The notes under the pieces: model-generated
The model's database searches: none
Seen by the model: the letters and a program-made list of their open reading frames with translations, nothing else
What the model was told of the DNA's origin: nothing
Position numbers and translations under genes: made by a program
Source: a virus
IMG/VR virus record: IMGVR_UViG_3300031774_000184
Coordinates: 1 to 21,625 of that record
Direction: 5' to 3' (one strand)
Length of the DNA stretch: 21,625 nt
Shown: positions 3,853 to 20,763 of the stretch, piece after piece
Layout: every line of letters begins with the position of its first letter
Numbering within the stretch: the first letter of the stretch is position 1

Positions 3853-4778
3853 TGGCTTTAAATTTTGCAAGAGATACAGACGTATATGTATTATATGATG
3901 GTTCATATTATAAATTGCACGTATCTCAAATAGAATTCGATCAAGCTTTTCAGCAGGATTCTTATAAAACAAAAACTATTGATAAACCTACAAACTTAGT
4001 GGATGCATCTAAAATTACTTCAGCGAATGTTGCAAATTTTAGTATCACCTTCCCTATGGTTGATGAGTCTTCTACTTATCAACACATTCTATTGCAGTTA
4101 CTATTAAGTAATACAGACAATATTTTAAATACTTTTACTTTGTATGTAGACCCTTCCACAGCAGGTCAAGCAGTTAATCTTAGACGTATGTATCAAATAA
4201 GTAACTGTGTACTAACGAGTGGGTCTTTTACAATTGGAAATAATGCGGTAATGCAAATGGAAGTGACAGGTCAAGCCTCTCAACTTTCACGAATTAATTA
4301 TACTAACTTTAATATTGGTAGTTATACTACTTTTGACAATTTAACTTATGCTGTATCTAAGATTATCAATGTTACAGTAGACGGGTCACTTTTAGAAGGG
4401 ATATTTGGAGTTGCTTTAGAGATACAAAACAGTATATCTTGGACAAAAAACAAGACTCTACAAAATAGTTTGGATATAGCGGGATATACGCAAACAGTAT
4501 ACCCCGCTAGTTTTGTATTTGAGGAAAGAGTAGTCTCAGGGAGCATTACTCAATATGTAGGAAACTCTTTGGCAGCATATACAAATATACAAACATGGAA
4601 AGAAAATATAGCAGTAAGGATTCAAGCTGGTTTAGCATCAAACAACTATCAACTTGATGCACAACTAACTCCTTGCTCCTTTACAAATAGAGTAACACCT
4701 ACGGAAATATATTCGCAGGCTTACGACTATAGAATGATGGGACACCCATCAAATTTAAACAGTTCATTCACTTACTAG
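3852..4778 (+). CDS. Second tail tube-like protein
   Basis: The 308-residue product starts at a GTG that overlaps the upstream TAG (TAGTG); a Shine-Dalgarno CGGAGA at 3841-3846 supports this start. It opens MALNFARDTDVYVLYDG, much like MALYFQRDATLRV of the tube protein at 767, and both are rich in beta strands and Ser/Thr. This gene lacks the inserted module. Its composition (many Asn, Thr, Ser, Tyr; no membrane segments) fits a virion protein. Tube paralogs in other phages can form a distal ring, a tube initiator or a decorating layer. Its place directly before the chaperones is where the main tube gene often sits, so it could equally be the principal tube and the 767 product a modified one. 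The similarity is clear only at the N-terminus by eye. Confidence 0.5.
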   Translation: MALNFARDTDVYVLYDGSYYKLHVSQIEFDQAFQQDSYKTKTIDKPTNLVDASKITSANVANFSITFPMVDESSTYQHILLQLLLSNTDNILNTFTLYVDPSTAGQAVNLRRMYQISNCVLTSGSFTIGNNAVMQMEVTGQASQLSRINYTNFNIGSYTTFDNLTYAVSKIINVTVDGSLLEGIFGVALEIQNSISWTKNKTLQNSLDIAGYTQTVYPASFVFEERVVSGSITQYVGNSLAAYTNIQTWKENIAVRIQAGLASNNYQLDAQLTPCSFTNRVTPTEIYSQAYDYRMMGHPSNLNSSFTY

Positions 4779-4787
4779 GAGATTAGG

Positions 4788-5270
4788 ATGAAATTAGCAG
4801 AACTATTAGTTGATACTAAACTTGCTTGGATCGAGTTCCCAGGCTGCGAAGGATTTGAGGTGGAAGTCGCAAATCTATCGCGAAAAGAATTAGTAAATTT
4901 AAGAAAAAAGTGTCTTAAAACAAGGTTTGACAGAAAGACACGACAAGCAGAAGAAGAGTTAGATGATGAGAAATTTGTAAATGAATTTACAAAAGCAACT
5001 ATCAAAAACTGGAAAGGATTCAAGCTAAAGTTTTTAGAAGACTTACTTATAGTGGATCTCACAACCAGTGACCCAGAAGATGAGTTAGAGTATAATTTTG
5101 AAAATGCTCATTCTCTTGTTTCAAACTCTACAGAATTTGACAATTGGATTAACGAGGTGGTCTTTGATCTTGCCAATTTTCGCGGAGGAGCAGAAGAACC
5201 TTCTATGGGATCGACTGGAAAAGTGGCAAAAAAACAGCGAAGTCAAGATGACGAAGGATCGGTATCTTGA
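4788..5270 (+). CDS. Tail assembly chaperone, lambda gpG-like
   Basis: The 160-residue acidic, helical product follows the second tube gene by nine bases and has AGGAG at 4777-4781. It ends just before the tape measure, in the place of lambda gene G. Members bind the tape measure protein during tail assembly and are absent from the finished virion. Visible features are an N-terminal beta region (TKLAWIEFPGCEGFEVEV), a charged helix (LSRKELVNLRKKCLKTRF) and a central conserved-looking stretch (FTKATIKNWKGF). The 3' end has codons GCA AAA AAA C, so an A7 tract lies at 5228-5234, about 12 codons before the stop. The downstream frame overlaps there, as in gpG/gpGT systems, where a minority of ribosomes shift and make a longer fusion. 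Confidence 0.75.
   Translation: MKLAELLVDTKLAWIEFPGCEGFEVEVANLSRKELVNLRKKCLKTRFDRKTRQAEEELDDEKFVNEFTKATIKNWKGFKLKFLEDLLIVDLTTSDPEDELEYNFENAHSLVSNSTEFDNWINEVVFDLANFRGGAEEPSMGSTGKVAKKQRSQDDEGSVS
5226..5235 (+). other. Candidate programmed frameshift site (A7 slippery tract)
   Basis: In the frame of the upstream chaperone the codons are GCA-AAA-AAA-CAG, giving A_AAA_AAA as slippery heptamer. A -1 shift would hit a TGA at 5249-5251 after five codons. A -2 shift, continuing from 5233 as AAC-AGC-GAA, or a +1 shift enters the open downstream frame and gives a fusion of about 260 residues ending at 5571. A -2 shift at this gene pair is known for phage Mu; -1 is used by lambda. The alternative is no shift and independent initiation at ATG 5248. 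Confidence 0.5.
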
Positions 5271-5571
5271 TATGATGGAGCAGCTAGGTCAAGAACCTAG
5301 CCTAGAGGAACTGCCCCCGGGGTACGAGGATTTTCCAGATATAGTTATTGAAGCAATAGAAACTTTTAATAGCTTAGGAGATCGAGTTCAAGCAGACATT
5401 GGATATATAGGCAAAGATTACACTAACCTACCTTACTATATGAAAATAAATAAGGTAGAAGACGAAGATTTATTTTTAAGCATCCTACTTAGACTGGATG
5501 CCCAAGCCATAGAGATTTCATCTAAACGAATGAAAGCTCAAATGGACAAGGCAAAGAGAGGACATGGCTAG
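5248..5571 (+). CDS. Tail assembly chaperone second part, gpT-like (separate 107-aa protein or frameshift extension)
   Basis: From ATG 5248 the product begins MTKDRYLDMMEQLGQEPSLE and continues with PPGYEDFPDIVIEAI, ending at a TAG at 5569-5571. This is coherent, coding-like sequence, acidic and helical, and it lies between the gpG-like gene and the tape measure, the place of lambda T. The open frame extends upstream to 5098, but the part before about 5230 is hydrophobic and out of character, so it is only a shadow of the first gene. Two ways of expression fit: a -2/+1 shift at the A7 tract, which would join it to the first 149 residues of the upstream protein, or its own start at 5248. The latter has only a weak Shine-Dalgarno (GCGAAG). 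The stop overlaps the tape measure start by eight bases. Confidence 0.65.
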   Translation: MTKDRYLDMMEQLGQEPSLEELPPGYEDFPDIVIEAIETFNSLGDRVQADIGYIGKDYTNLPYYMKINKVEDEDLFLSILLRLDAQAIEISSKRMKAQMDKAKRGHG

Positions 5572-8500
5572 TAACGTAATATTTACAGTTGAGGGTAAAG
5601 GTAAGAATCTAAAGAAGACTTCGAAAGAGGTTAACGACTTAGGTCGCGGTGCAGAACGTGCCGGCAAAGGTTTAGATAGTGCCAGTAAAGCTCAAGATAA
5701 ATATCATCGAGGGGCTAAAGGTGTTGCCGGAGTATCTTCTAATAGTACTAAAAACTTCTCAAAAATGCAACAGGGAATAGGTTCGGGGTCGTCCGGTCTT
5801 GTAGGAGCCTACGCAACATTGGCCGCAAACTTATTTGCTGCAAGTGCTGCTTTTAATGCATTACAAAAAGCTGCTCAATTAGAAGGAGTTGTTAAAGCTC
5901 TTAATGATGTAGGAGCAGCAGCCGGTAGGAATCTTACTGCAGCTTCTGATAGGTTACGAGAAGTAAGTGGTATGGCAATATCTGCCGACCAATCTTTGCG
6001 TGCAATGTCTTTAGGGGTGTCCTCTGGTTTTAGTACGGAGCAAATGGAAGGGCTAACAAAAGTTGCTCGAGGAGCTTCAGTTGCTTTAGGTAGAGACTTA
6101 GGCGATGCTCTTGATCGTTTAACTCGAGGTACCGCAAAGTTAGAGCCTGAAATCTTGGATGAATTAGGTATTATGGTTCGCTTAGACGATGCTACTGCAG
6201 AGTACGCTGCAACAATTGGAAAGTCTGTAAATGATCTGTCTCAATACGAGAGGCGTCAAGCATTTTTGAATGCTACCTTGGAACAGGGCACTAAAAAGTT
6301 TGGTGAGTTAGCAGAAACTATTGATGTAAATCCTTACGATAGATTAGCAGCCACATTAGGAGATACTGCAAAACAATTTTTAACTCTTATAAATGATGGA
6401 GTTGAACCTTTTGTAAGTATACTTGCAGAAAATCAAGGTGTTTTAATTGGTACTATAGTTATGTTTGCTTCAACAATTGCAAAACAGCTTTTGCCTGCTA
6501 TGACTACTTTAGGAGCAAAAACTGTTGAGCAATCTAAGTCGGATGCGAAAGCTTCCGCAGATAAACTAAAACACTTAAATGTTTCTAAAGGCATGCCTAA
6601 AGCCTATATCGAAGCTGCGAGAGCCATGTCTAAAGGTACTATTACTCAAGAGCAGTATGATAAAGCTCTTCGTAGTACTTCGCTGTCTATAAGCAGACAT
6701 CGAGTGGGTTTACAAAATATGACTCTTTCTAACTTTGCAGCTACAAAATCTTATGTTAAAAAGATCTTAGTAATGCAGCAGGTTAAAAGAGCGAGAGAAC
6801 AGCTAATACGAACTGCGATGATGCATGCTACTGTAGTTGCAAAAGAGAATGCAGGTAACGCTATTCAAATGATCGGACAAGGAAATCTTATAAGAGGGTT
6901 CGCAGCTTTAGGTCGCTCTATAGCATTATTTACTAGTCAAACTATGGGGGCTACTGCAGGAGGTAACTTACTAACTCGAACAATGGGTCTTATGAGAATT
7001 GGAGCTTTTGCTTTAGGTACAGCAATGCGTGCCGTAGGCTCGGCTTTTATGGCAATGCTTGGTCCTATAGGATTAGTAATAAGTGTAGGAATGATGTTGT
7101 ATGATGCTTTTAAAGATAAGTTTGTGCAATCTAAGCCTGTAAAAGAAGAAACCGATAAAATAGTGAAAGAACTAGAATATATCGAAACCGTTGGGAGAAA
7201 GTTTGCAGATAATATGGATAAGTCAGGAGCTGGCTCTGCTGATAATGTTGTAGCGGGCTACAAAGCTTTGGGCGGTGTACTACAAGAGTTACAAAGCAAC
7301 TTGAACCGTGTTCAACGAGCACATGTACAAACTAAAAGTACGGCTGTGGATGCGGCAAATGCAGAAATAGCCGAACAACAGAGGTTAAAAGCGGAAGCCG
7401 AGAAAAATTTAAAATCAAGAGCTAGATTCGTACGAAACAAAGCGGCACAAGACGTAGCAGCTGCAGAGGACGCCATAAACAAACAAAAAAACCTTATAAA
7501 AAAAGCTGAAGCAGAAATGAAATCTTTAGCTCCGGAACAACTATTAAGAGTAATAGATGAAACTAATTCAAAGCTATTACAAACAGGTGCCTTTGGAAAG
7601 TTTTCAGAAGTTGGTGTAAAAGCTATAGCAGACGTAAGAGCAGAAGTAGAAGCAGAAGGTGGCTCTATAGAAGAAGTTAATAAAAGACTTGAAGAAGCTA
7701 TTCGTCCTATTATGAATATGGCAGGAGCTTTTGAAACGGCAAATGATGCAGCCTCTCAATTTAGAAAAGAACAAACTAAGCTTGCTACTAAAGACACTAC
7801 ACCTTTTGATGGCGTAATAGATGGTGCGAAAGGAATGTTAAAAGCCTTGAGAACTGTAGACGAATCAATAGACAATTTATCAAAAGGGGCCACTGACGGT
7901 CAGAAAGATAAATTAGAAGCTGAAAGAAAAACTCTTTTAGCAGAAATAAACAAACAAATGGGATCTGAGTTTTTAACAGGCTCAGATAGTCTAGAAGCGT
8001 ATGTGGATAAGCTACTTGAGGCAAGAAAAACTCTATTAGAAAGTAAGGGGTTAATTAAAAATCTTCAGAAAGAACAAAAAGATTTAAATAATTTAGATAG
8101 ATCTTCAACAACTTTAGGTACTTTAAACGCGGTTTTAGCAAAAGAAAAAGAACTTAGAACAACAAAACTAGAAGCAGCTAAGGCAACTATAGCATTAAAT
8201 GAGTTATCTTTAGGAGTAGCTCAAGAAGAGTTGGTAGCACAAGCAGAGAAAAATTTAGAGAATGCAAAAGGTGCTACTGAAAAATTAGCTGCACAAAATG
8301 AGTTGGACAGACTACAAGAAAAGTCTGATCAAGCACGGCTGTCTAACTTAGACGCACAAGCAGAGAAAGACAGACTACTATTTGAGCAAAAAGTTGCAAA
8401 TGCAACAAAAGAGTTCCGCCTGGCCCAAAGACAGGCAGAAGTTTCTATACAAGAAAATAAAAGAGCACAAGAGTTGTTGGCTTTGACAAAAGAAAGAACT

Positions 8501-10294
8501 AGTCAAATTGCAGGTCTTGTAGACGCTCAAATGGAAGCCGTAAGACTAGAAAGACCCGGAGCTACAGGCAACGAAAGTGCTACTAAGGGAGAAGAACTAG
8601 CTGCTTTTCAAGTTCTTGCAGAAGTACGAAAAGCTTCTATAGATAACGAATATAATCTTAAAGTTGAAATGATTCAATTAGAGTATGAATTGTTAAAAGC
8701 AAAGCAAGAATTGTTCCAAGCTGAAGTACAAATAAAAGCAGACGAAGGAAAAATAAGCAAAACAGCAGCTGCAAATGCTATAGAAGCCTCTAAGAAAACT
8801 GTTACTCATGCAGAAAAAATAGCAAAACTGTCAAAGCAAAACGCAGAAAGACAAAAACGACTAGACCAATTAACTCTTGCTAATGAAGGTAAGAAAATAG
8901 CACTACAAGCCGCAGAAGAAAGACGTCAAGTAGGACAAGATGCAGGATCTCCAGCAGAGGCGGCAGGTTTAATTGCACAATACGATAGAGATGTAGCTGC
9001 TGCAAGAGATGCTGCTATAAAAGCACAAATAACTGAAAAAGACGCGATTATAAAAGCTTTTGCAACAGAAAACAGCGTAATGATAAGCGACGGAGTTTAT
9101 CAATTCACAAAAGGGCAGTTTGAGCAACTTCATGAGCAAATAAAATCAGCATTAGGTGAAAGCATGGCTAATGCTTCTGGAACTCCAGGAGCAGGAGGAA
9201 CGACAGATGTAGCTACAGGCAGTGGCGCGGGGACTGGTGTAGGAGGAGACGGTACAGGGGACGTAGATCCTTTAGTACAAATGAAAGATAGATTAGCCAC
9301 TACTAAATCAGTTCTTGGACCTATGATAGATAAATTTAAAGAAATGGGCCCTGAAGGGGAAGTAGTCGCAGCCGTAACGGGAGGCGCTATAGCTATAAAT
9401 GAGGCATTTGTTACTATGTCTGAAAATGTAGCAAAGGGTGCAAATAAAACAGCCGCGGGATTAGAAATGGCCAGTGCTGTTATGGGTCAGGTTCAAAATA
9501 TCATGGCAGCGGCTTCTAAGTCAAAAATTGCAGGAATAGATAAAGAGATAGCAGCAGAGAAGAAAAAAGACGGCAAGTCAAAAGAAAGCTTAGCAAGAAT
9601 TGCAGCTCTTGAAAAGAAGAAAGAAAAAGAAAAGAAGAAAGCGTTTGAAATGAATAAGAAAATGCAAATGGCTACTATTATTATTGATACTGCTGCTGCC
9701 GCAATGAAAGTTGTGGGACAAACAGGAATCTTTGGGCTATCAATGGTACCTATGGTTATAGCAATGGGAGCTGCGCAATTAGCAATGGTTGCTAGTCAAA
9801 GCTATCAAGGCGGAGGGGGCGGTATGGGAGCTGGAGGTTCAAGTGCTCCTTCTAAAGTTACCATGGGGTCTCGACAAAATAAAGTAGACCTTGCTACAGG
9901 ACCAAGTAGGGCCTCCGGAGAACTCTCATATATGAGAGGAGAGCGAGGACAAGGAAGTTCTGCGTCTAGCTTTACTCCGGCTTTTGGAGGCATAAAATAT
10001 AGAGCAGCAGGTGGAGCTGCTTATATGATAGGTGAACAAGGCCCAGAGGTATTTGTACCAGAAGTTCCTGGTCGTATAATGCCTAATGATGAAGTTAGAC
10101 AAGGAGCTGGAGGAGCTCCTATCAATGCAACTTTTAATATTAGTGCGATTGATGCTTCTAATATGGAAGAAACTTTAACCGCTCAAAGAGGAAATATTAT
10201 TGGTATGATAAGAGAAGCAGCGAACAGCTCAGGAGAAAGCTTTTTAGAGAGCGTGGACACTCTAGCTCTTGGCGAAGATAGGAATACTTACTAA
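5564..10294 (+). CDS. Tail tape measure protein
   Basis: At 1576 residues this is the tape measure, which fills the tube lumen, sets tail length and is ejected during infection. The start ATG lies within the upstream stop region and has AGAGAGGA at 5555-5562. Regions seen: a Gly/Ser/Lys-rich N-terminus; a conserved-looking segment with LVGAYATLAANLFAASAAF and ISADQSLRAM, typical of tape measures; hydrophobic stretches near residues 290-316 and 474-513; long Ala/Glu/Lys/Gln-rich coiled-coil regions (about 580-700 and 830-1180); a Gly-rich linker near 1205-1235; a third hydrophobic stretch near 1366-1414; and a C-terminal AAGGAAYMIGEQGPEVFVPE, the G-E-x-G-P-E-V-x-V-P motif common to tape measure C-termini, recognised by tail assembly partners. 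The hydrophobic stretches may reach the host membrane. I see no lysozyme or peptidase motif. By the usual rule of about 0.15 nm per residue the tail would be roughly 235 nm long. Confidence 0.92.
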   Translation: MASNVIFTVEGKGKNLKKTSKEVNDLGRGAERAGKGLDSASKAQDKYHRGAKGVAGVSSNSTKNFSKMQQGIGSGSSGLVGAYATLAANLFAASAAFNALQKAAQLEGVVKALNDVGAAAGRNLTAASDRLREVSGMAISADQSLRAMSLGVSSGFSTEQMEGLTKVARGASVALGRDLGDALDRLTRGTAKLEPEILDELGIMVRLDDATAEYAATIGKSVNDLSQYERRQAFLNATLEQGTKKFGELAETIDVNPYDRLAATLGDTAKQFLTLINDGVEPFVSILAENQGVLIGTIVMFASTIAKQLLPAMTTLGAKTVEQSKSDAKASADKLKHLNVSKGMPKAYIEAARAMSKGTITQEQYDKALRSTSLSISRHRVGLQNMTLSNFAATKSYVKKILVMQQVKRAREQLIRTAMMHATVVAKENAGNAIQMIGQGNLIRGFAALGRSIALFTSQTMGATAGGNLLTRTMGLMRIGAFALGTAMRAVGSAFMAMLGPIGLVISVGMMLYDAFKDKFVQSKPVKEETDKIVKELEYIETVGRKFADNMDKSGAGSADNVVAGYKALGGVLQELQSNLNRVQRAHVQTKSTAVDAANAEIAEQQRLKAEAEKNLKSRARFVRNKAAQDVAAAEDAINKQKNLIKKAEAEMKSLAPEQLLRVIDETNSKLLQTGAFGKFSEVGVKAIADVRAEVEAEGGSIEEVNKRLEEAIRPIMNMAGAFETANDAASQFRKEQTKLATKDTTPFDGVIDGAKGMLKALRTVDESIDNLSKGATDGQKDKLEAERKTLLAEINKQMGSEFLTGSDSLEAYVDKLLEARKTLLESKGLIKNLQKEQKDLNNLDRSSTTLGTLNAVLAKEKELRTTKLEAAKATIALNELSLGVAQEELVAQAEKNLENAKGATEKLAAQNELDRLQEKSDQARLSNLDAQAEKDRLLFEQKVANATKEFRLAQRQAEVSIQENKRAQELLALTKERTSQIAGLVDAQMEAVRLERPGATGNESATKGEELAAFQVLAEVRKASIDNEYNLKVEMIQLEYELLKAKQELFQAEVQIKADEGKISKTAAANAIEASKKTVTHAEKIAKLSKQNAERQKRLDQLTLANEGKKIALQAAEERRQVGQDAGSPAEAAGLIAQYDRDVAAARDAAIKAQITEKDAIIKAFATENSVMISDGVYQFTKGQFEQLHEQIKSALGESMANASGTPGAGGTTDVATGSGAGTGVGGDGTGDVDPLVQMKDRLATTKSVLGPMIDKFKEMGPEGEVVAAVTGGAIAINEAFVTMSENVAKGANKTAAGLEMASAVMGQVQNIMAAASKSKIAGIDKEIAAEKKKDGKSKESLARIAALEKKKEKEKKKAFEMNKKMQMATIIIDTAAAAMKVVGQTGIFGLSMVPMVIAMGAAQLAMVASQSYQGGGGGMGAGGSSAPSKVTMGSRQNKVDLATGPSRASGELSYMRGERGQGSSASSFTPAFGGIKYRAAGGAAYMIGEQGPEVFVPEVPGRIMPNDEVRQGAGGAPINATFNISAIDASNMEETLTAQRGNIIGMIREAANSSGESFLESVDTLALGEDRNTY

Positions 10295-11034
10295 TGGCAC
10301 AATTTACAGCATTTCAAAATATACTTCCAGATCCCAATAACCGTATTTCATATTCGGGAAGTGCGTCTTCGTCAGATACAGGAGCAAGTCTTGGACCGGG
10401 TTGGGCTTCTACACAGCTAACTTCTAAGCAGCCTGTTATGCAAAATCGTACAAATAGTGGTAGAGTAATTTCTCGAGCTATTGCTGGGCATACTTGGGAA
10501 ATAAGTATAAATTATAACGAGCTTACAAAAGCAGAGTTTACTCCAATTTATGCTTTTCTCATACAAAAAGTAGGGAAACTAAATCCTTTCTTTGTTGCTC
10601 TGCCTCAGTATCAAGTAGCTCAAGATTCTACTTTTGCATCAGCTATGGCAGGCGGAACTGCTATAACGACAGCAGAAGTAGCTCCTGCAGGTAGAAACTA
10701 TTTTTTATCTGCTTATACTGGAAACGGAAGTCCTCGTCCCGGAGATATATTTACGATTACAGATACTGATAATACTATTCATACAAAATTATATATGGTG
10801 ACTCGTACAGAAACAAACGCAGACTATAATTCAAATGTAGGCTCTCAGCCTAGTACAGGACAAAGAAGAATACACTTTACTCCTTCTTTAACCTATTCTA
10901 CTTCAAATGGCTCTGCCTTGGATTTTACCAGCCCTTTGATTAGGGTTGTAAATTCGGCTGATACAAACAACTATAATTTAAAACCTAGTGGTCTTTATTC
11001 TTTTAATTTAAAACTAACAGAAGCAGGAGCTTAG
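10294..11034 (+). CDS. Distal/minor tail protein (Dit- or gpM-like)
   Basis: The 246-residue product follows the tape measure with a one-base TAATG overlap and is beta-rich. It carries patterns common to proteins in this place: S-G-R-V-I-S-R-A-I-A-G-H-T-W-E-I-S-I-N-Y, then a segment with F-T-P-I-Y-A-F-L and F-F-V-A-L-P-Q-Y, then strands ending R-P-G-D-I-F-T-I and Y-M-V-T-R. The fold is likely a beta-sandwich ring protein joining the tube end to the tip complex, the job of lambda gpM or of Dit proteins. It precedes the tip protein by one base. No enzymatic motif is seen. The assignment to the tube-tip joint rests on position and general pattern. Confidence 0.6.
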   Translation: MAQFTAFQNILPDPNNRISYSGSASSSDTGASLGPGWASTQLTSKQPVMQNRTNSGRVISRAIAGHTWEISINYNELTKAEFTPIYAFLIQKVGKLNPFFVALPQYQVAQDSTFASAMAGGTAITTAEVAPAGRNYFLSAYTGNGSPRPGDIFTITDTDNTIHTKLYMVTRTETNADYNSNVGSQPSTGQRRIHFTPSLTYSTSNGSALDFTSPLIRVVNSADTNNYNLKPSGLYSFNLKLTEAGA

Positions 11035-11035
11035 A

Positions 11036-14000
11036 ATGTCTCGATTAAATAATACAAATGGTGCTTTATTATCGGCGTTAAACAATAACACGCCGTTTAT
11101 CTATGCTCATCTAGTAAAATTTGAGCGACCTACTGTTGAAGCTAATACAAATATACCTATAGTTAAAGGAACAAACGGAAATAAGTTTGCATACATAACT
11201 GATGCTGGTTATGATATTACTTGGGACGACGGTTCTACTTACTTGAACTCAAGTGATGCTGTTGTTGCGAATGGTAATAGAACTTATACTGCTAATAAAC
11301 TTTTAAAAACGGGATCGGTAACAGAGTCTACTCGAGTAAAAGTAGACGGACTAAATATAGAGGTAGATGCTACTGCAATAGATACAGAAGTTACAAGTAC
11401 TTTTACTGTAACTTCTACAGAAATACAAGGATTAAAAGGCGTAGACTTAGCCGCAGCAGGTTTTAAAGTTGGAGACAAAATACGTTTCACCGATAACGCT
11501 TCTTCGGAATTAACTATTACAGGATTTAAAGGAGATGGTCAAGGGGGTATTCCTGGCAATTTAAATGCTAGAATGACTTATACTGTATTGTCGGGCAGTC
11601 AAAGTGCTTTTTCTAGTACGGAAAAAACTCTTACATTAGTAAGTGAAGAAGTAAAATTTTTAACTAATTCAACGCTAGATACTTCTTTTGTAAACAGACA
11701 AGTCATAGTATATAAAGCTTTTTTCTACGCAGACAACCCTCATACCCTAATTGGAGACCCAATTAAACTATTTGAAGGAATCATTACTGGAGGTAGTTAT
11801 AAGCAATCAGAGAAGAAAGCTTCTGTTAGCTGGCAATTAAAAAGTCATTGGGGTGACTTCGAACAAACTAGAGGAAGAATTACTTCTGCTGACTTTCATC
11901 AAGCATTAGACCAAAATGAAAACCCTCAAAAAGACTCTACTCTAAAGAAAGCTTATGCAGAAGATTACGGGTTTGCTCATTCAGAAATGGCTTTAAATGT
12001 TATTGCTCAATATCAAGATATTGAAATGCAATTAAAAGAAAAAAAGAAAAAGAAGTGGTATGGAGCTACAAAATACAAGTATAAAGAAATAGAAGTAGAA
12101 GTAACAAGAGAAACTGATCTTCGATTTGATCTTCAAGCACGCAGAATTCCTTTAATATATGGTGTTGTAAGAACAAAGCCTGTTCCTGTGTTTGCAGATA
12201 TAGGAGCAAGCTCAGATACTAACAATCAGGTATTTACTGCCCATGTTCTTTCTGAAGGGCCTATTCAATCTATAATGAATATTTATGTAGATGATATGCC
12301 TTTAGTATGTATTGACGAAGCAGATGCTACTGCTCGCTCCACAGGAAGTGATGCGGTAGATATAAAGTGCGTTGGAAGAACAGATTCAGGTGAAGTTTTA
12401 GGAGGTGCAGCAGCTTCCACTGCTAGTGAGCTTACTTATGACGTTACAGAGGATTTCGCCTCTGTTGGTAGTGAAAATCCAGCTGCTGGAGGTTTATTTA
12501 CTAGGGCGATATCTAAAGCACGGGCCGCCGTGCTTGCTTATGCTTTTGCCAATCCTTCTACTAGTTCTTTTCAATCTTCTAGTAAGGGGATCTTTCATGA
12601 AAGAAATATAAAGTTTACTGATCCCGAAGATTGGTATCTAGAGTTTCATGGCGGCTATGAAGACCAAGCAGCTTCCTCTATGATAAGCACTCAAGCAAAT
12701 ACATCAGGTAAAAAATTCAGAATACAAGAAGACTATTGGACTCCTGCTGCAGGCTCTGGAATAGAATACTGGGGACCTCAACACCAATTATTAGACACTG
12801 CATACGCAGCTATAAAGTTTGAGCTATCCCCCGATCAAACTCAATTGCCTAGTTTAGAATATGTTGTAAAAGGTAAAATGATTGAATGTTACAACTATGA
12901 TGGAAGCTACGAACATAACAGCTTAGTTACTTACAACTCAGAAGATATTACAAATTTTACAGAGGGAGATACTGTAACAATCAAAACTCGACGAGGGTTT
13001 ACAGCTTCTTCTGATGCAGGAGGAGCTACCTATTCTGCTAATGATACTATTGCAGCTTCTAAAACTATTTTAGAACTTTTCTACTTTGTGGATGGAAAAG
13101 GAGAAACTCATTGGAGAATGAGATGGGACTTAACAGGGCAACAGCAAGATATACTAAATGAAGCAAAAGATTTTTATGTAGTAAAAGGCAGTGATACTTG
13201 GAGTATGATAACGTATGATGGAACTGCAACTATAGATACAAATATAACTATAGCAGAGGTTTTAACTACAACTATTTCTTCTCCTACTTCATCAGGGAAT
13301 GCAAACTATGCAGCTACAAGAAGCAACCAGTCTTCGTCTTTTGATGCGAGTATAAACAATGAAGCTATGTTCAGATTTTTAGAAATACATGAATCAGAAG
13401 GCGCAGGTTACTCTGATAGATATTACTACAGCCAAGCTTTGAACGGTTCTTTAGGTAACAATACTTTAACTTTTTCAACTATTAACAGTCAAAAAGCGGC
13501 TACCATGACTAAGGTAGATATTACAAATAAGTTAAAACTATCTAGCAATGCTAGTTCTACAGATGACTTCTATAATGGAATGAATATAGTAGTGACTAAA
13601 GTTACTTCAAATGGTGATAGAGAAAAAGTAGTTAAAAAGATTGAAGATTATGATGGCAGTACTCGGGTAGCTACGTTAACACAAGAGTTTTTAGAATTCA
13701 GACCTTCTGTAGGCGATAAGGTAGAAATTAAGTTTACAAAGGATGTGGTCTCTAGCGCAGCAGGAAATGATGTTCGTCCTAGTACTAATTTCGCAATGAT
13801 ACTACTTGATTATATATCAAGTAAAACTTATGGTCCTGGAATTGACTTAGATACTAAAATTGATTTAGACACTTTTAGACTAGCAGCACAAATGTGTGAT
13901 ACTCAGTCTGATGTTACTGTAAAATTTGCAAGTAGTGTATCTTTAACTGAGGGCGATGTTTATAGATACTTTGAAAATAGTCTTGAGAAGTGGAGAGGAA

Positions 14001-17000
14001 CCGTAAAAAGTACCGCAAGTGGAACTTCTCATGTATTTACTAACTGTTTTGGTAAGCTAACTAATAAATTCAATAACTGGAAGTATAGAAACTTAGGGGA
14101 CTTAGTATACACAAGTAACGGCACAGATTTGTATAAGGTTACTACTGGTGGTACTCAATCTTCTATATCTACTAATGCAAGTACTGAGGGAGCTCCTGTA
14201 TTACGAAAGGTAAGTGGTTCAGGTCCTTCCACTGCTACTATGGTAGGAAATGGTACGGGCAATCCTGTTACTGCGTATTCTTTATATGACGCAGACGACG
14301 TAAAGTTTTGGAAATACCTAGGCTGGGAAGAACCTCGCCAGAAGTATGCTACACGTCACCAAGGTAATATAAAGCTTGATACGAATCAAACTGTATTTCA
14401 AATAATTCAAGGACTACTAGAACACTTTAATGGGCAACTTGCTTTTGTAGATGGAAAGTACAGACTAACAGTTGAGTCTACAAGAACGGCTGATGAGTTA
14501 GATTCTGTATTTACGGATAACATAGGAGGTAACTCTCCTACTGTTGCTAATCTTGATATAAGAGCTAGATATATTACAGCAGAAGATATTATTGGAAATA
14601 TATCTATAAAGGATGCAGGGCTTTCGAAGGCTTTTAACTCTTTATCTGCTTCTATTGCAGACCCACAATTGAATTTTGATAGTAGGTCTGTTTCTTTCTT
14701 TAACTCTGAGTACCTAAAAGCAGATAGGGGTGTTGTACGATCCACTAATTTTACAGCAGGAGGAATTACAAATTACTTTAATGCTCGTATGCTTGTAAAA
14801 CAGACATTAGATAAATCAAGATTTAATCGACAAATCTCTTTTACAATGAGGCCCGTAGGAATATCTATACTTCCAGGAGAGCTTATTCGAATTGAATACG
14901 ATCGTTTTGGTTGGAACTCTACTGCACCTAAATTATTTAGAGTAGAAACTGTAAGTCTAAAAGAAGATTGTTTAATTGGAATAACAGCAGAAGAATACGA
15001 TGATAGTGTATATCTTATTGATCCACCAAAGACAAGCGCATTCTTTATTGATACAAAACAAGCTGCAGTGGCAAGAGTTCCTACTGCTCCTTCAAATGTT
15101 ACTGTATCTTCAAGTGGGCCTGCTGGAGCAAATGTTGTCTCTTGGACAGCTTCTGCAGGTTTGGGGCCTGGCGGAAAGTACGAAGTTTGGAGAGCTACAA
15201 ATAAATCAGGTAATCCTTCTACTTCTGTAGTAAGCCACGCAACTCAGTTAGATTTTGAACCTGTTACTAATACTTATACGGATATTGGATTTACCAATAC
15301 CTCAAACGTTACTTACTACTATTGGGTTCGTGCTTACAATGAAATGGTCCAACAAACAACTTCTGGAACAGATCAAAGACGTAAAAAATATTATAGTGCG
15401 TTTAATGCTAACTCAAACTATGGGGATGCAACTGATGCTGCCCAAGTAGGTAGAGCTGTAGCAGACGGTATTAGTCCTATAAGTGTTGACATAAAAAGCT
15501 CTGCCGTATTGGTTCAGTGTGACTCTGCAGGTGCAGTAATTTTATCTGGTGGCCAGATACCTGATTCAGGAAATGAGTTTAGAGTTTTTGAAGGTACGAC
15601 CCAACTACAGTTTGACGGAGCTGGAACTAGCAATGGAACTTTTAATATTACAGTTAGTGCCACTAATGTTAATAATGGCACTATAGTAGACTCAGGAGCC
15701 CATGCAACAGTAAATCCTGCCACAGGAATGACAGCAGATATAGGTACTTTAGTATTTACTATCTCTGGTAAAACAAGTACAGGAACAGCATTTACTGCAA
15801 CACGTACACAAGGATTTACAAAAGCAATTCCAGGAGAGACGGGAGTGGGAGTTGAACTTGCTCCAAGTAAGTATGTAATAAACTATACAAAAGCCAATTC
15901 AGAAAGCGATACTATAACTCTTACTGCAACTCCTAGAAACATGAGTAATCTTACTCCTCACTATCAATTTACTGTGGGAGGCTCTAACATAGTTCAAAGT
16001 TATTCTACTACTGCCACTCATACTCTTGCAGACAACTTAGAGCCTGCTTCAGGAGCTTCTACTTTAATTTCTGTATCTGTAAAAGATGGAGGAACTGGAG
16101 ATGTACTAGCAGCAGACTCTGTTTCAATATACGGTGTTAAGGATGGAGAAGATGCTCAAATAGGTTTCTTAACAAATACAAGCGAGGCAATACCTTCAGA
16201 AAATGATGGCACACTTCAAAGTGGAGCATTAAATAATGCTGGAGGAACTTTCAAAGTATTTGTCGGAGGAACAGAAAGAACCACTCATTCAGACGTAACT
16301 TTTGCAGCTTCAAATGCAACAGGAATGGCTTCGGCTATAAACTCAAATACAGGGGTTTATACTGTATCTGCTTTAAACTCAGATCAAGCTAGTGTCCAAT
16401 TTACGGCTACAATAGCTGCAGGATCTTCTTTGCTTGGGGGAACGGGAGCGTCTGCGGTAACTATTGGTCCTCTTACTTACAGTATGGCAAAAGCAAAGAA
16501 AGGGGCACAAGGTAATTCAATTACAGGAGCAACAGGGCCAAGAACTACTACTGCACGACTTTTTTACAGTGTAGCAGCTGCAAGTGCTCCAACTGCTCCT
16601 ACAAGTTCTAATACAAATACGTTTGTATTTAATACAGCAGTTTTTTCAAATAGAGCAAGTAATTGGCAACATAACCCTCCTACTTTTGCAGGATCAAATC
16701 AAAATAAATATTGGTATATACCGTTTACTGTTACAGAAGCAAGCTTTGGCGGAACACAGTCTATAACATTTGGAAGCGTAACTCAGGCTATAGGATTTAC
16801 AGGTCTTGTAACTTTCTCAAATGGCGACACATTTGGAGATGGTACAAATGCTATGAGTTTTGGTGCTAGTGGTACGACATCAATAAATGGTGGTAATATT
16901 ACTACTGGTGTTGTAAACTTAGGTACTTCAAACGGTATGGCAATTCGTCAAGGAAAAACTGGATACCCGGATGCTAGTACTACAGGTTTTTGGTTAGGAA

Positions 17001-18835
17001 ACGATGGTGGTACTCCCAAATTTAGTATAGGAACTTCTACTAATTTTCTTAGATTTAGTGGTTCTGCGTTAGAACTTGCGGGAACTTTAAAACTGGTTGA
17101 TGGAGGGAGCACAACAACACTTTCAAATAGTAATACTCTTAACGGAAATACTGAGTGGTCTGATGTAGCAGGAACTTCAAATGCTCCTGCTGATAATGCT
17201 ACAGCAAATAGAACTGATTCCAGTACAGATGCTGCAATTGCAACTGCAGAAAGTGATGCTGTAGCTACAGCGGGAACGAATGCAAATACAGCAGCAAAAA
17301 CAGGGGGTTCCATTGGTGGCTGGGAACTAGGAACTAGTCGAATTTATTCAAATGGTCACGGAACTACTTCTCTTAGCGCAGGTAGTGGTTTTCTTGGTAG
17401 TACAGGAATGGTTCTTCGAAAAGAAGGAGCAATTCACTCAAAAAACTTTTATATAAATGAGAATGGAAATGCTGGATTTACAGGAGCAATAACTGCTACC
17501 TCTCTTTCTTTCGGCACCAATGTAACGGTAGATTATGATAAAATTAGTGGTACTAATAAGCCCGCAAATGGTGCTACAGCAAACCAAAGTGATGCAACAA
17601 CTAATAATGCAATTTCTGCCAAAAGTAAAGTATTTAGACAAACTAATACTCCAACTGCTCTAGCCGCTGGAGATGTTTGGATTGATACGAATGACGGTAA
17701 TAAAATGTACGTTGCAAGCGCAGCAGGAACCGGCAGTTGGAATTTATCTCAAGATGCTGCAAGTAAAACAACCGCAGCTGCTGCAGCTGCTGCTGCCAAC
17801 AGCGCGGACAAAGACGATGGTTCAGTAGGCGGATGGAACTTAGATGCAAATAATATATTTTCAGGTACTTCTGCGGATGCGTCAGGTTATACGTCTAGTG
17901 GAATGACTTTAAATAAAAATGGGTCTATTCACGCTCCTAAGTTCTATATAGATACAAGCGGAAACGCTTTCTTTAAAGGATCTATTGAATCTAGTGCATC
18001 AATTAACGGTACTGCTGCATCTACTATAACTGCAGATGCAGCACTTGCTAAATGGAGTATATCTGGAACTTCAACAAACTATAGAGCTCCTATTTATACC
18101 CAAGGAAGCGGAACAACTACTCCAAATAGCGGAGAGCAGATTACAGTAACAGCAACAAATGGATCTACTACACATACTTATACTGTAACTTTTACCGTAA
18201 CTACTTCAACCGGAGCAGTAGCTACGGGTTTCAGTGGAGATACAGGACAGTTTTCTCACAATAATACTTTTGGAACATTTACCGCAAGCGCTTCCACTCC
18301 TGTCAGAGTAGGAACAGTGACACACACTACTTCTGGATTAAAATGGAAAATTTCTTATGGTTCTATGAACGTAGAAGCAGTTACTATTCAGTGTTGTTTT
18401 ATAGGGGACACTCTTATAGATATGATAGACGGGGCAAGAAAAGCTATAAAAGATATAGAGATTGGAGACCGAGTAATTGTAGAAACAGGAACTGCAGAAG
18501 TAATAGAATTACATCCCACAATACTAGGAAGTAGAAAACTATACTCCATAAACGGTGGAACTGCTTTTGTAACATCAGAGCACCCTTTTAAGACAGAAGA
18601 AGGCTGGAAGTCTATAGACCCCGAAAAAACAAAAGAAGAAAGAGAGGAGCTCTATAAAGAATTAAAAGGAACTTTACAGATTGGAGATAAAGTTTTAAAA
18701 AGTGACGGACAATATCATGAAATAACTGATATAAGTTCTGTAAGTGGAGACTACAATACTCCATTATATAATTTTACAGTCGGCTTAGACGATCACTCGT
18801 ATTTTGCTGACGGATACTGCGTACACAACAAATGA
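11036..18835 (+). CDS. Giant tail tip / host specificity protein, gpJ-like, with C-terminal Hint domain
   Basis: This 2599-residue product (AGGAG at 11025-11029) should form the central tail tip that contacts the host. Residues about 1-270 resemble DUF2163/gpL-like tip proteins (FIYAHLVKFERP, TDAGYDITWDDG, VYKAFFY). Residues about 270-1340 look like the gpJ hub, with the hallmarks RRIPLIYGVVRTKPVPVFAD near 368, GPGIDLDTKIDLDTF near 933 and LLEHFNGQLAFVDGKYRL near 1120. Residues about 1348-1436 are a fibronectin type III domain (PTAPSNVTV ... YYYWVRAYN). Next come beta-sandwich and linker units (GETGVGV near 1600, KDGEDA near 1702, KGAQGN near 1820) and two related fibre units beginning IGGWELGTSRI (about 2093) and VGGWNLDANNI (about 2265). 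Residues 2454-2599 are a Hint domain. Separate L, K, I and J genes, as in lambda, are absent. The hub call is strong; the N-terminal family name is less certain. Confidence 0.85.
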   Translation: MSRLNNTNGALLSALNNNTPFIYAHLVKFERPTVEANTNIPIVKGTNGNKFAYITDAGYDITWDDGSTYLNSSDAVVANGNRTYTANKLLKTGSVTESTRVKVDGLNIEVDATAIDTEVTSTFTVTSTEIQGLKGVDLAAAGFKVGDKIRFTDNASSELTITGFKGDGQGGIPGNLNARMTYTVLSGSQSAFSSTEKTLTLVSEEVKFLTNSTLDTSFVNRQVIVYKAFFYADNPHTLIGDPIKLFEGIITGGSYKQSEKKASVSWQLKSHWGDFEQTRGRITSADFHQALDQNENPQKDSTLKKAYAEDYGFAHSEMALNVIAQYQDIEMQLKEKKKKKWYGATKYKYKEIEVEVTRETDLRFDLQARRIPLIYGVVRTKPVPVFADIGASSDTNNQVFTAHVLSEGPIQSIMNIYVDDMPLVCIDEADATARSTGSDAVDIKCVGRTDSGEVLGGAAASTASELTYDVTEDFASVGSENPAAGGLFTRAISKARAAVLAYAFANPSTSSFQSSSKGIFHERNIKFTDPEDWYLEFHGGYEDQAASSMISTQANTSGKKFRIQEDYWTPAAGSGIEYWGPQHQLLDTAYAAIKFELSPDQTQLPSLEYVVKGKMIECYNYDGSYEHNSLVTYNSEDITNFTEGDTVTIKTRRGFTASSDAGGATYSANDTIAASKTILELFYFVDGKGETHWRMRWDLTGQQQDILNEAKDFYVVKGSDTWSMITYDGTATIDTNITIAEVLTTTISSPTSSGNANYAATRSNQSSSFDASINNEAMFRFLEIHESEGAGYSDRYYYSQALNGSLGNNTLTFSTINSQKAATMTKVDITNKLKLSSNASSTDDFYNGMNIVVTKVTSNGDREKVVKKIEDYDGSTRVATLTQEFLEFRPSVGDKVEIKFTKDVVSSAAGNDVRPSTNFAMILLDYISSKTYGPGIDLDTKIDLDTFRLAAQMCDTQSDVTVKFASSVSLTEGDVYRYFENSLEKWRGTVKSTASGTSHVFTNCFGKLTNKFNNWKYRNLGDLVYTSNGTDLYKVTTGGTQSSISTNASTEGAPVLRKVSGSGPSTATMVGNGTGNPVTAYSLYDADDVKFWKYLGWEEPRQKYATRHQGNIKLDTNQTVFQIIQGLLEHFNGQLAFVDGKYRLTVESTRTADELDSVFTDNIGGNSPTVANLDIRARYITAEDIIGNISIKDAGLSKAFNSLSASIADPQLNFDSRSVSFFNSEYLKADRGVVRSTNFTAGGITNYFNARMLVKQTLDKSRFNRQISFTMRPVGISILPGELIRIEYDRFGWNSTAPKLFRVETVSLKEDCLIGITAEEYDDSVYLIDPPKTSAFFIDTKQAAVARVPTAPSNVTVSSSGPAGANVVSWTASAGLGPGGKYEVWRATNKSGNPSTSVVSHATQLDFEPVTNTYTDIGFTNTSNVTYYYWVRAYNEMVQQTTSGTDQRRKKYYSAFNANSNYGDATDAAQVGRAVADGISPISVDIKSSAVLVQCDSAGAVILSGGQIPDSGNEFRVFEGTTQLQFDGAGTSNGTFNITVSATNVNNGTIVDSGAHATVNPATGMTADIGTLVFTISGKTSTGTAFTATRTQGFTKAIPGETGVGVELAPSKYVINYTKANSESDTITLTATPRNMSNLTPHYQFTVGGSNIVQSYSTTATHTLADNLEPASGASTLISVSVKDGGTGDVLAADSVSIYGVKDGEDAQIGFLTNTSEAIPSENDGTLQSGALNNAGGTFKVFVGGTERTTHSDVTFAASNATGMASAINSNTGVYTVSALNSDQASVQFTATIAAGSSLLGGTGASAVTIGPLTYSMAKAKKGAQGNSITGATGPRTTTARLFYSVAAASAPTAPTSSNTNTFVFNTAVFSNRASNWQHNPPTFAGSNQNKYWYIPFTVTEASFGGTQSITFGSVTQAIGFTGLVTFSNGDTFGDGTNAMSFGASGTTSINGGNITTGVVNLGTSNGMAIRQGKTGYPDASTTGFWLGNDGGTPKFSIGTSTNFLRFSGSALELAGTLKLVDGGSTTTLSNSNTLNGNTEWSDVAGTSNAPADNATANRTDSSTDAAIATAESDAVATAGTNANTAAKTGGSIGGWELGTSRIYSNGHGTTSLSAGSGFLGSTGMVLRKEGAIHSKNFYINENGNAGFTGAITATSLSFGTNVTVDYDKISGTNKPANGATANQSDATTNNAISAKSKVFRQTNTPTALAAGDVWIDTNDGNKMYVASAAGTGSWNLSQDAASKTTAAAAAAAANSADKDDGSVGGWNLDANNIFSGTSADASGYTSSGMTLNKNGSIHAPKFYIDTSGNAFFKGSIESSASINGTAASTITADAALAKWSISGTSTNYRAPIYTQGSGTTTPNSGEQITVTATNGSTTHTYTVTFTVTTSTGAVATGFSGDTGQFSHNNTFGTFTASASTPVRVGTVTHTTSGLKWKISYGSMNVEAVTIQCCFIGDTLIDMIDGARKAIKDIEIGDRVIVETGTAEVIELHPTILGSRKLYSINGGTAFVTSEHPFKTEEGWKSIDPEKTKEEREELYKELKGTLQIGDKVLKSDGQYHEITDISSVSGDYNTPLYNFTVGLDDHSYFADGYCVHNK
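18395..18832 (+). other. Hint (Hedgehog/intein) domain at the C-terminus of the tail tip protein
   Basis: Residues 2454-2599 of the tip protein match the Hint blocks. Block A is CFIGDTLIDM with catalytic Cys2454 and then A-I-K-D-I-E-I-G-D-R-V. Block B is T2513-S-E-H2516-P-F-K-T-E-E-G-W, the T-x-x-H that assists the N-S acyl shift. Block F is Y-N-F-T-V-G-L-D-D-H-S-Y-F-A-D-G-Y. Block G is V-H2597-N2598. Only Lys2599 and the stop follow, so there is no C-extein and no Cys/Ser/Thr at +1, and classical splicing is not possible. The expected chemistry is thioester formation at Cys2454 with cleavage or transfer to a nucleophile, as in Hedgehog and bacterial intein-like domains. The residue before it is also Cys (2453). 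There is no homing endonuclease; the domain is about 145 residues, the size of a mini-intein. Confidence 0.88.
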
Positions 18836-18846
18836 GGAGATAACGC

Positions 18847-19602
18847 ATGGCAACAGCAATACAAGGAGTAAGTTTAGGGGATACTGTATATGATCCTGTT
18901 TATAAAATGGTAGAAGGAGGAGTTACTTATACTATGAGGCTAGGTACGGCTACGGACGTAGATAAAACACTATTTGATAGCACTTTAGGAATAATTCCTG
19001 ATTATTCAAATATGGATTACCGAAGAAAACAATATATTTACTGGAATGCAAGTACTCCCAAACCTCCTTACCCTGCAAAAGCTTATCGACAATGTTGGCT
19101 AGTATTTGAAGTGAATGGAACTCCAGTGGGCTCTTTTGCTTTTGATGCAACTACAGATGAAAACAGTAAAGAAACTATTCTTAGTAATAAACTCGCAATT
19201 TTAGAATCTGAAAGAGGTAAAAAATATTCAACTAAACTTCTCAATCTTTTAGGATGGATGGCAAAAGAGGCTGGAGATGGACACGACGTTGTAGAGATGG
19301 ATTCAGATATAATAGCGGCTGTCAAACCCGCTTTGAAAGAAGCACATAAAAGAGGAGGAGAACTTTTGCAAACAGACCAAACTAAATTTTCGGATGGCCC
19401 GTCTCACAGAATAAAGGTAGACACTAGCAAAGGAGCAGCTTTTCGAGAATCTCAAGGACTATCTTCTAGTAACTTTAGTATTGAAGATAGAAATACAGCA
19501 ATATCAGATACAAAATGGGCTACAGGAGATATAACAAAAGAAATAGCGGATAACCTTACCCAAAGCACTTCTATACCAGCTTGGAATGCAGATTGGGTAT
19601 AA
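18847..19602 (+). CDS. Possible GNAT-family acyltransferase downstream of the tip protein
   Basis: The 251-residue product starts after GAGGAGA (18834-18840), which overlaps the stop of the tip gene, so the two are probably co-translated. The centre (about residues 80-165) has the run of a GNAT core: a strand with WLVFEVNGTPVGSFAF, then a strand leading to ESERGKKYSTKLLNLLGWMA, then a strand with DVVEMDSD and a helix. R-G-x-x-Y-S-x-K-L-L sits where GNAT enzymes have the Q/R-x-x-G-x-G/A acetyl-CoA pyrophosphate loop, but the second Gly is not canonical. The C-terminal 90 residues (Asp, Ser, Thr, Asn rich) are not recognised and could be a virion-attachment part. If it is a GNAT, substrate is unknown; it may modify a tail protein or a host component. 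An alternative is a small structural or chaperone protein for the tip. Confidence 0.4.
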   Translation: MATAIQGVSLGDTVYDPVYKMVEGGVTYTMRLGTATDVDKTLFDSTLGIIPDYSNMDYRRKQYIYWNASTPKPPYPAKAYRQCWLVFEVNGTPVGSFAFDATTDENSKETILSNKLAILESERGKKYSTKLLNLLGWMAKEAGDGHDVVEMDSDIIAAVKPALKEAHKRGGELLQTDQTKFSDGPSHRIKVDTSKGAAFRESQGLSSSNFSIEDRNTAISDTKWATGDITKEIADNLTQSTSIPAWNADWV

Positions 19603-19679: not shown

Positions 19680-20012
19680 ATGGCAGCAGGCAAATACAAC
19701 ATTAGGATAGATCAGGGCAGCGACTTTTCGATTCAACTTACCGTAAAAGAAAGTGGCTCTGCTAAGAACATAACGGGCTATAGTGCTCGGGCACAGCTGC
19801 GCACGTCAATTACATCCAGTTCGGTAGCAGCTACTTTTACCTGCACAATAACAAATGCAGCAAACGGCATACTTACAATGGCTTTACCAGCTGCAACTAC
19901 GACAGGCTTAACTGCAGGAAATTATGTATATGACTTAGAATTAGTCACAGGCTCTGCAGTGCAACGTTTAATAGAGGGGACTGCTACACTTAGAGCTGAA
20001 GTAACTAGATAA
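19680..20012 (+). CDS. Small virion-associated protein, BppU-like beta-sandwich
   Basis: The 110-residue product begins MAAGKYNIRIDQGSDFSIQL and shows the pattern of a family of small phage proteins with an Ig-like/BppU N-terminal-like fold: I-D-Q-G-S-D-F, then I-T-G-Y-S-A-R-A-Q-L-R, then T-x-G-L-T-A-G-N-Y-V-Y-D-L-E-L, ending R-L-I-E-G-T-A-T-L-R-A-E-V-T-R. In other phages such domains attach receptor-binding or fibre proteins to the tail or head. It is the first gene after the promoter, and its TAA overlaps the next ATG by one base. It is probably an adaptor or decoration protein of the fibre assembly; that role is inference. Confidence 0.6.
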   Translation: MAAGKYNIRIDQGSDFSIQLTVKESGSAKNITGYSARAQLRTSITSSSVAATFTCTITNAANGILTMALPAATTTGLTAGNYVYDLELVTGSAVQRLIEGTATLRAEVTR

Positions 20013-20428
20013 TGCCTACTACTAATATATTAACTACTTTAGCCCCCACATCGGTTACTGCTGTAGAAGTATTAGAAGATGACTGGTTTGTAGAAGTTAG
20101 GACAGACAGTGAAATCGTAGTTTACTCCGAAACTAAAACTATTGATGTCGATGTAGGTGTCTATATTTTTAGTGGATCTTTGTTTGCTGCATCAGGCTAT
20201 ACCGTAACTCCTAAAGCTCAACTGACGGGTACAAATATTCAAACCGCTATTGAGGAGTTAGCAAGACAATTAAGTTTTAGTTCTACCCCTACTGCAAATC
20301 CACAAGAAGGGGATGTTTACTATGATACTGATGATAATATTTTACGGTTACGAATTGACAGTGCTTGGCAAACTTTAGCAGGCAGTACAATCAACAGTAT
20401 GACAAGAATTGAAGGAGGATCTTTCTGA
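20012..20428 (+). CDS. Accessory fibre-region protein, first of two paralogs
   Basis: The 138-residue product overlaps the upstream stop by one base (TAATG) with no strong site of its own, so it is likely coupled. Its C-terminal half (T-N-I-Q-T-A-I-E-E-L, then G-D-V-Y-Y-D-T-D-D-N-I-L, then W-Q-T-L, ending M-T-R-I-E-G-G-S-F) matches the next product position by position. The Y-Y-D-T-D unit with a following W is common in small phage fibre-associated proteins. The codons for the final E-G-G-S-F contain AAGGAGG (20412-20418), the ribosome binding site of the next gene. Function is unknown; a tail-fibre or head-fibre accessory role follows from context only. Confidence 0.6.
   Translation: MPTTNILTTLAPTSVTAVEVLEDDWFVEVRTDSEIVVYSETKTIDVDVGVYIFSGSLFAASGYTVTPKAQLTGTNIQTAIEELARQLSFSSTPTANPQEGDVYYDTDDNILRLRIDSAWQTLAGSTINSMTRIEGGSF
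20412..20418 (+). promoter_or_regulatory. Ribosome binding site embedded in the C-terminal codons
   Basis: AAGGAGG, a full Shine-Dalgarno match, lies nine bases before ATG 20428 and is formed by the Glu-Gly-Gly codons of the upstream paralog. Strong translation of the second paralog is expected. Confidence 0.7.
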
Positions 20429-20763
20429 TGGCGGATACAGAAATCACAGTAGAAGAAGATGTAACAACTGTTGCAGTTACTGCATCTACTCCTGTTTCAA
20501 TCACAACCGCATCTGGAATTGGCTTTACCCCTTTTGGGCACGTAGGTTCAACAGATGTACAAAATGCCTTGGAAGAAGTTATTGATCAATTTACTGTTCA
20601 AGCAGCTCAACCAGGGAGTCCTGTAGAGGGGCAGCTTTTCTACGATACGGACGATAACTTACTACAAGTGTATGCGGATACCTCCGGTGGAACGCAATGG
20701 ATTACGCTACTCAGAGCAGGAAGTGCTAGTGACATGACCAAGCTCGATGGAGGATCATTCTGA
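20428..20763 (+). CDS. Accessory fibre-region protein, second of two paralogs
   Basis: The 111-residue product starts at an ATG that overlaps the upstream TGA by one base (TGATG). It aligns with the upstream product: T-D-V-Q-N-A-L-E-E-V against T-N-I-Q-T-A-I-E-E-L, G-Q-L-F-Y-D-T-D-D-N-L-L against G-D-V-Y-Y-D-T-D-D-N-I-L, and M-T-K-L-D-G-G-S-F against M-T-R-I-E-G-G-S-F. A short insertion (DTSGGTQ) precedes the conserved W. The pair arose by tandem duplication or by gain of a related cassette. Its own terminal GGAGGA (20751-20756) is too far from the next ATG (20784) to act as its site. Function is unknown. Confidence 0.6.
   Translation: MADTEITVEEDVTTVAVTASTPVSITTASGIGFTPFGHVGSTDVQNALEEVIDQFTVQAAQPGSPVEGQLFYDTDDNLLQVYADTSGGTQWITLLRAGSASDMTKLDGGSF

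Follow-up and report, generated by a model that had tools for sequence, protein, structure and literature searches.

The window analysed here, the whole of IMG/VR virus record IMGVR_UViG_3300031774_000184 (21,625 bases, probably from a marine phage), carries a gpJ-type tail-tip gene whose product closes in a Hint domain. This raises the question of what such a domain does at the end of a phage structural protein. We find that the final 147 residues of the tip protein form the Hint end, which by sequence is an A-type bacterial intein-like (BIL) domain for which cleavage or splicing is predicted. Among the explanations considered, a self-releasing terminal module with self-release at Cys2454 is the most likely, and we give it about an even chance of being right. 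The following positions bear on this account:

11036-18835, + strand: tail-tip protein of T5 pb3 / lambda gpJ type, 2,599 residues, with the C-terminal Hint domain
18314-18394, + strand: stretch before the Hint domain, residues 2427-2453, ending in the -1 Cys (18392-18394)
18392-18397, + strand: codons of Cys2453-Cys2454
18395-18829, + strand: Hint domain, Cys2454 (C1) to Asn2598, from Pfam Vint, the family alignment, and AlphaFold with PDB matches
18395-18397, + strand: Cys2454 (C1), putative nucleophile of the N-S acyl shift
18572-18583, + strand: block B TSEH, Thr2513 to His2516
18824-18829, + strand: His2597-Asn2598, Asn-cyclisation motif
18830-18832, + strand: Lys2599, the +1 residue and the entire C-extein, followed by the stop TGA

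A sequence-only reading had placed a Hint domain here with Cys2454, T-x-x-H at 2513-2516, His2597-Asn2598 and one Lys before the stop, and all of these residues and coordinates are right: the C-terminal sequence runs CCFIGDT...TSEHPF...YCVHNK, with 145 residues from C1 to Asn. Searched alone, the domain matched Pfam Vint (PF14623) at E=8e-8, above the gathering score, as well as Hom_end_hint (7e-7), Hedgehog Hint (2.6e-5) and PT-HINT (3.5e-5). An AlphaFold2 model built with 16 family members bore out the fold (predicted local distance difference test, pLDDT, 96.2; predicted template modelling score 0.89), and Foldseek matched it to 46 PDB chains at E<=0.001, nearly all of them inteins, BILs or Hedgehog proteins. 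The Hint assignment of the tip C-terminus is well beyond chance. The top PDB match was BIL2 of the Tetrahymena BUBL1 locus (VIA-align Z 19.7, root-mean-square deviation 1.9, 134 residues), which also came first by Foldseek and by sequence profile (E 3e-16); it was followed by the gp41-1 intein (Z 17.5), a Clostridium BIL (16.8), DnaB inteins (16.4) and Hedgehog (15.6). The fold is shared by two proteins of uncultured Caudovirales phages in BFVD, A0A6J5KSY2 and A0A6J5M6E1 (TM 0.88-0.91), both named 'Hint domain containing protein'. Because viral predicted structures include several such Caudovirales entries, Hint domains in phage proteins had been annotated earlier, without function; we found no papers on Hint domains of phage tail proteins in the open-access literature.

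A-type BILs are defined by having no need for a Cys, Ser or Thr at +1 (PMC9185962). The window domain shares their Hint fold of ~130-155 residues (145 residues, Z 16.8 to 2lwy), N-terminal Cys, block-B TxxH and C-terminal His-Asn without an obligatory +1 Cys/Ser/Thr, and the family, like A-type BILs, sits in variable rather than conserved parts of proteins that are unrelated to one another. Such domains reportedly cleave mostly and splice in some cases (PMC5874633, PMC7664689), although a review holds that they self-cleave yet cannot ligate their flanks (PMC7765530). The view taken from the sequence, that the domain can cleave and cannot splice, is partly supported. By their residues the N-junction and the His-Asn end are catalytically complete; 'cannot splice' is too strong, because A-type BILs need no +1 Cys/Ser/Thr and reportedly sometimes splice, so that the lack of such a residue does not exclude splicing. 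Likewise, it is true that only a Lys follows the Asn, but the slot is not empty: this Lys is kept throughout the family.

To place the window domain among its relatives, we used a family found by a DNA motif scan for EHPFxTxxGW and then by an alignment scan, in which 363 of 537 stretches were confirmed and 80 kept. These homologues come from uncultivated or metagenomic phage contigs, many of them partial. The EHPFxTxxGW loci were chosen without regard to domain ends, and removal of near-copies left a non-redundant sample (n=44); the sets of 63 to 67 members also draw on loci retrieved with a VHNK pattern and so carry a bias for the end, from which the non-redundant sample is free. C1 is Cys in 44/44 of this sample. 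Among its members with a profile score >=90, the +1 residue is Lys in 38/39 (Glu in the other), His-Asn is kept along with the Lys in 38/39, and the -1 residue is Ser, Cys or Thr in 38/39. Pro at -1 together with Arg at +1 was seen in four upstream copies of tandem arrays, and a +1 Cys in one ordinary intein. Ten sample members stop directly after the Lys, whereas others begin 1-5 residues ahead of C1. The block-B Thr (T60) is kept in 60 of 63 members and is otherwise Ser; the E-H of this block belonged to the retrieval pattern. His-Asn was found in the relatives that extend to that end.

A family alignment in which Cys1 or the TxxH varied was to count against the sequence-only reading; both are kept, and His-Asn with them. 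At ~33-55% identity to the window's Hint, Cys1, the block-B His, and the His and Asn of the C-terminal end are among the most conserved positions, which argues for live chemistry. Moreover, the His-Asn-Lys codons of the C-terminal class vary synonymously (CAC/CAT, AAT/AAC, AAA/AAG), so that selection acts on the protein. Collectively, the catalytic residues are conserved with Ser, Cys or Thr before them and Lys after, in a module that moves between termini and between host proteins. Judged from these alignments, a large, uncharacterised phage family, new here, carries this Hint domain with an apparently fixed signature (S/C/T-C...HN-K).

Placement of the domain varies widely. Hints of this family occupy the ends or the interior of at least four types of tail protein and are absent from close relatives of these. 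C-terminal copies, often with Lys and then the stop, are found in the window, in L126, in the 1,295-residue hub-like protein of L018 and in a tail family starting MKGTLFS (L054, L092, L108). Internal copies lead into a linker rich in Gly and then another domain, N-terminal copies open gpJ-type tips that start MCC..., MGGSC... or MGKLSC... and run into HNK-GGGG, and tandem copies are separated by linkers down to a single Lys. On a 63-sequence tree with long branches and unsure details, the C-terminal class required four changes and the N-terminal class three, at least two in each case being forced by well-supported branches; the Hint module has therefore changed place more than once. The Hint nearest to the window's (68%) closes another gpJ protein, that of L126. 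Between these two tips, blastp gave 63% identity over residues 2427-2599 and no other match, while the genes downstream of the tip are 26-70% identical. Since the tips match from residue 2427 only and the downstream genes match as well, this C-terminal part and the fibre genes behind it have moved as one between unrelated tips.

Relatives that lack the domain indicate how it is attached. With the tip region of N-terminal-class proteins as query, relatives both with and without Hint came back; the Hint-free ones compared here are 46-60% identical to Hint-bearing ones over ~400 residues past the junction. Where Hint-bearing tips read MC-[Hint]-KGGGGGGG, the Hint-free ones read ...EYEGPITEC-KGGGGGGGG or ...EHTGPVAEC-KGGGGGGGG; the N-terminal Hint thus separates a Cys from a Lys which are direct neighbours in its Hint-free relatives, a junction seen in about two lineages. 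For C-terminal contexts, scans for Hint-free homologues gave one informative case, L345 (the L092-type scan returned identical copies only). This homologue of L018 (54% over the matched part) ends ~9 residues past the Hint -1 position. Both the end of L345 and the C-K junction fit a module added to the natural end of a complete protein.

We hypothesize that the tip carries, added on behind its natural C-terminus, an A-type BIL-like Hint that acts once and in cis. The Cys2453-Cys2454 bond would be converted into a thioester on Cys2454 with the aid of His2516, and water or a small nucleophile would break it, freeing the ~16 kDa Hint and leaving a tip that ends ...VTIQC; cyclisation of Asn2598 could free the single Lys2599. 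In N-terminal copies the Hint module would instead be removed by Asn cyclisation between HN and K-GGGG. The module may serve as a transient terminal cap while the tip folds or assembles; this role is a guess, the timing is inferred, and the chemistry is drawn from homology.

Several observations weigh against self-release. His-Asn-Lys is kept in C-terminal copies, though drift would be expected if only release at Cys1 mattered, and C1 is kept in N-terminal copies that have almost nothing ahead of it. The Hint-bearing N-terminal class also lacks the ~30-residue N-terminal segment of its Hint-free relatives, so that there the Hint replaced a segment rather than being simply inserted. Finally, the phage collection searched holds no record with a close family member, and we found no biochemical or proteomic data on this Hint family.

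Among the alternatives, covalent ligation survives best, although we regard it as unlikely. Here the amine that attacks the Cys2454 thioester would come from Lys2599, giving an isopeptide or a re-ligated tip-Lys, or from a lysine in an adjacent fibre or virion protein, and the tip would be joined rather than merely trimmed. The +1 residue of inteins is usually Cys, Ser or Thr, a requirement that A-type BILs do not have; in this family no flanking position is better conserved than the +1 Lys. The nearest solved relative, BIL2, reportedly forms an isopeptide bond with the epsilon amine of a lysine, its N-flank being conjugated to other proteins and the attacking lysine lying in the C-flanking ubl5 domain (PMC8616854), which makes lysine-dependent ligation possible, if unproven, in the phage family. 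However, because that lysine lies in ubl5, and Met occupies +1 (after His-Ala) in the crystallised construct, a +1 Lys is not a BIL2 feature. The joint movement of Hint end and downstream fibre genes from one gpJ protein to an unrelated one would suit ligation too, but the downstream cassette need not be the partner, and a single-Lys product has no obvious use. More doubtful still is the broader proposal that the near-invariant +1 Lys, with Ser, Cys or Thr at -1, performs isopeptide splicing or conjugation, as a built-in, ATP-free ligase that would tag or join tail tips and baseplate proteins and be reused at either end, inside or in tandem.

We also consider it rather improbable that the domain is inert in the virion, folding but no longer reacting, as a structural bead or a tolerated passenger at protein ends. 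Tandem linkers can be as short as one Lys or Lys-Gly, which is hard to understand if they are processing sites, Hint-free relatives show the domain to be dispensable, and a match to the AXH (ataxin) domain indicates that this fold class can serve without chemistry. A non-reacting fold should nevertheless lose Cys1, the block-B His and the terminal His and Asn, and these are among the most conserved positions. Full BIL-type splicing, in which the freed Lys amine attacks the thioester after Asn cyclisation to leave ...C-K, has a small chance of being correct. Dassa is said to have reported BIL splicing without a +1 nucleophile in 2004, and the Hint-free N-terminal relatives show exactly C-K-Gly7-8 at the would-be splice point; but this match comes from about two independent lineages, and the window's C-extein is just one residue, a lysine that would seldom re-ligate once set free. 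Transfer of the Hedgehog type, in which a sterol, lipid or host-surface nucleophile would take up the tip, is scarcely credible, since the common 1at0 fold and the C-terminal position with C1 and TxxH are outweighed by an end in HNK with no sterol-recognition region behind it, the retained His-Asn and the closer BIL and intein matches. No explanation, self-release included, fully accounts for the terminal +1 Lys or for a C1 with almost nothing upstream.

Phage tails are known to mature covalently through capsid and fibre proteases or through chaperone domains that are cleaved off; to our knowledge no such role is known for Hint chemistry. If the domains described here are active, they would constitute a widespread, self-contained means of trimming or ligating tail proteins, and the Lys+1 module would be a new protein-ligation tool.

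The tip gene lies in a siphovirus tail block, in which tape measure, distal tail protein and tail-tip protein are followed by small tail-fibre genes:

5564-10294: tape measure (phrog_3779)
10294-11034: distal tail protein, T5 pb9 type (phrog_1302 and PF21425)
18847-19602, + strand: next gene, 251 residues, weak GNAT similarity (PF13508 E=0.0016, below cutoff)
19680-20763, + strand: three small genes that accompany the Hint end in L126 too
19680-20012, + strand: L-shaped tail-fibre-assembly-like protein (phrog_3304)
20012-20428 and 20428-20763, + strand: two short tail-fibre-like genes

Residues 167-1433 of the tip match T5-like tail proteins (tblastn, best E 5e-33), and PF13550 Phage-tail_3 falls at 1117-1289, under its gathering score. 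The tip, likened at the outset to that of lambda, is of the gpJ type but resembles T5 pb3 and not lambda in particular. For the stretch preceding the Hint, no useful homologue was found in the phage collection, and the first relatives obtained for the whole gpJ (L002-L005) matched repetitive tail regions only and had no Hint. The two short fibre-like genes, reckoned here as 20012-20425 and 20428-20760, are adjacent and duplicate-like, and match the same two L126 genes.

The product of 18847-19602 has a homologue (26%) at the same place in L126 (10456-11178); its AlphaFold model was uninformative (pLDDT 46). One or two GNAT-type genes stand directly upstream of T5-pb3-like tip genes in 84/90 loci, with or without Hint, as counted in the gpJ loci L012-L138 and L270-L343 having at least 900 bases upstream. 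Within this family they adjoin 58/64 Hint-free and 26/26 Hint-bearing tips, so that the association is with the tail locus, not with the Hint. By sequence similarity, the GNAT gene is probably a conserved tail-locus acetyltransferase, and on present evidence we do not consider the 18847-19602 gene a functional partner of the Hint. SET-domain genes of the lysine methyltransferase type (PF00856, E ~1e-10) adjoin Hint tail proteins in two unrelated gene families, directly downstream of a tandem-Hint tail protein in L178-L186 and at 5186-5635 in L135; the Hint-free control covered GNAT only.

Other Hint domains lie at varying distance from this family. Neither tblastn with three family members nor a single-protein scan that used the Hint of the window found a close relative in the phage collection or IMG/VR; what matched in phage records was either ordinary inteins, carried by helicases, terminases and portals, or the Hog-like domain of the cultured Achromobacter phage JWF (L125, KP202971). 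In JWF the gene (3077-6598) encodes a tail-fibre-like protein with the Hint at its C-end, after a Cys-Asn run (NCNCDCNCNCSCF), and stands two genes before one annotated as an anaerobic sulfatase-maturating (radical SAM) enzyme; the adjoining 240-residue gene is unrelated to the window's 18847 reading frame. Two or three tandem Hints with Lys or Lys-Gly linkers (HNK-CFLAG, HNKG-CFLKG) occur in L150, L187, L092 and L035 and in the bacterial L244, L254 and L258, and in many phage tandem arrays a Hog-like domain comes next, bearing SGSH and lacking His-Asn. Bacterial relatives (L193-L268, a sample selected on VHNK) end VHNK, many continuing into Gly runs; they occur in Bacteroidota, Legionella, cyanobacteria, Bdellovibrio relatives and candidate phyla. 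A different phage-tail Hint subfamily (L053, L056, L072, L110) has a Hint ending HN-F/Y near the C-end, the last part (AMIGEAGPEALVPL) being tape-measure-like.

Comparison with known systems sets the window Hint closest to BILs. Hedgehog is not its nearest kind, with BIL2 at the top, inteins and BILs (Z 15-17.5) at or above Hedgehog, and the His-Asn end kept. Hedgehog Hog/Hint (1at0) resembles it in fold, C-terminal position, Cys1 and TxxH, but has a sterol-recognition region and does not use a His-Asn end; a Hog domain stands at the C-terminus of a secreted signal, and here the host is a phage tail protein. A PT-HINT of polymorphic toxins was rejected, as the stop follows directly after Lys2599 with no C-terminal toxin domain. 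The gp41-1 and other class 1 inteins share fold, Cys1, block B and His-Asn, yet they sit in conserved enzyme cores whereas the phage Hint sits at protein ends. Assignment to class 1 was rejected because the window has Lys2599 and not a +1 Cys/Ser/Thr; an in-frame insertion with two substantial exteins was rejected too, the C-extein being one residue and the N-exteins of N-terminal copies 2-5. BIL2 of Tetrahymena thermophila (6y75, 6tmm) is the closest solved relative by fold and sequence profile, but it is located between ubiquitin-like domains and joins them via a distal lysine. The Clostridium thermocellum BIL (2lwy; 30% identity over 124 residues) shares Cys1, TxxH, His-Asn, a non-nucleophilic +1 residue, the lack of an endonuclease and a place in variable or terminal stretches of proteins unrelated to each other. 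From such A-type BILs the phage family differs in its conserved +1 Lys, its -1 Ser/Cys/Thr, its tail-protein hosts and the many copies that end right after the Lys. Among A-type BIL Hints, what is new is a phage tail family with a conserved +1 Lys and a placement that shifts between the ends and the interior of its host proteins.

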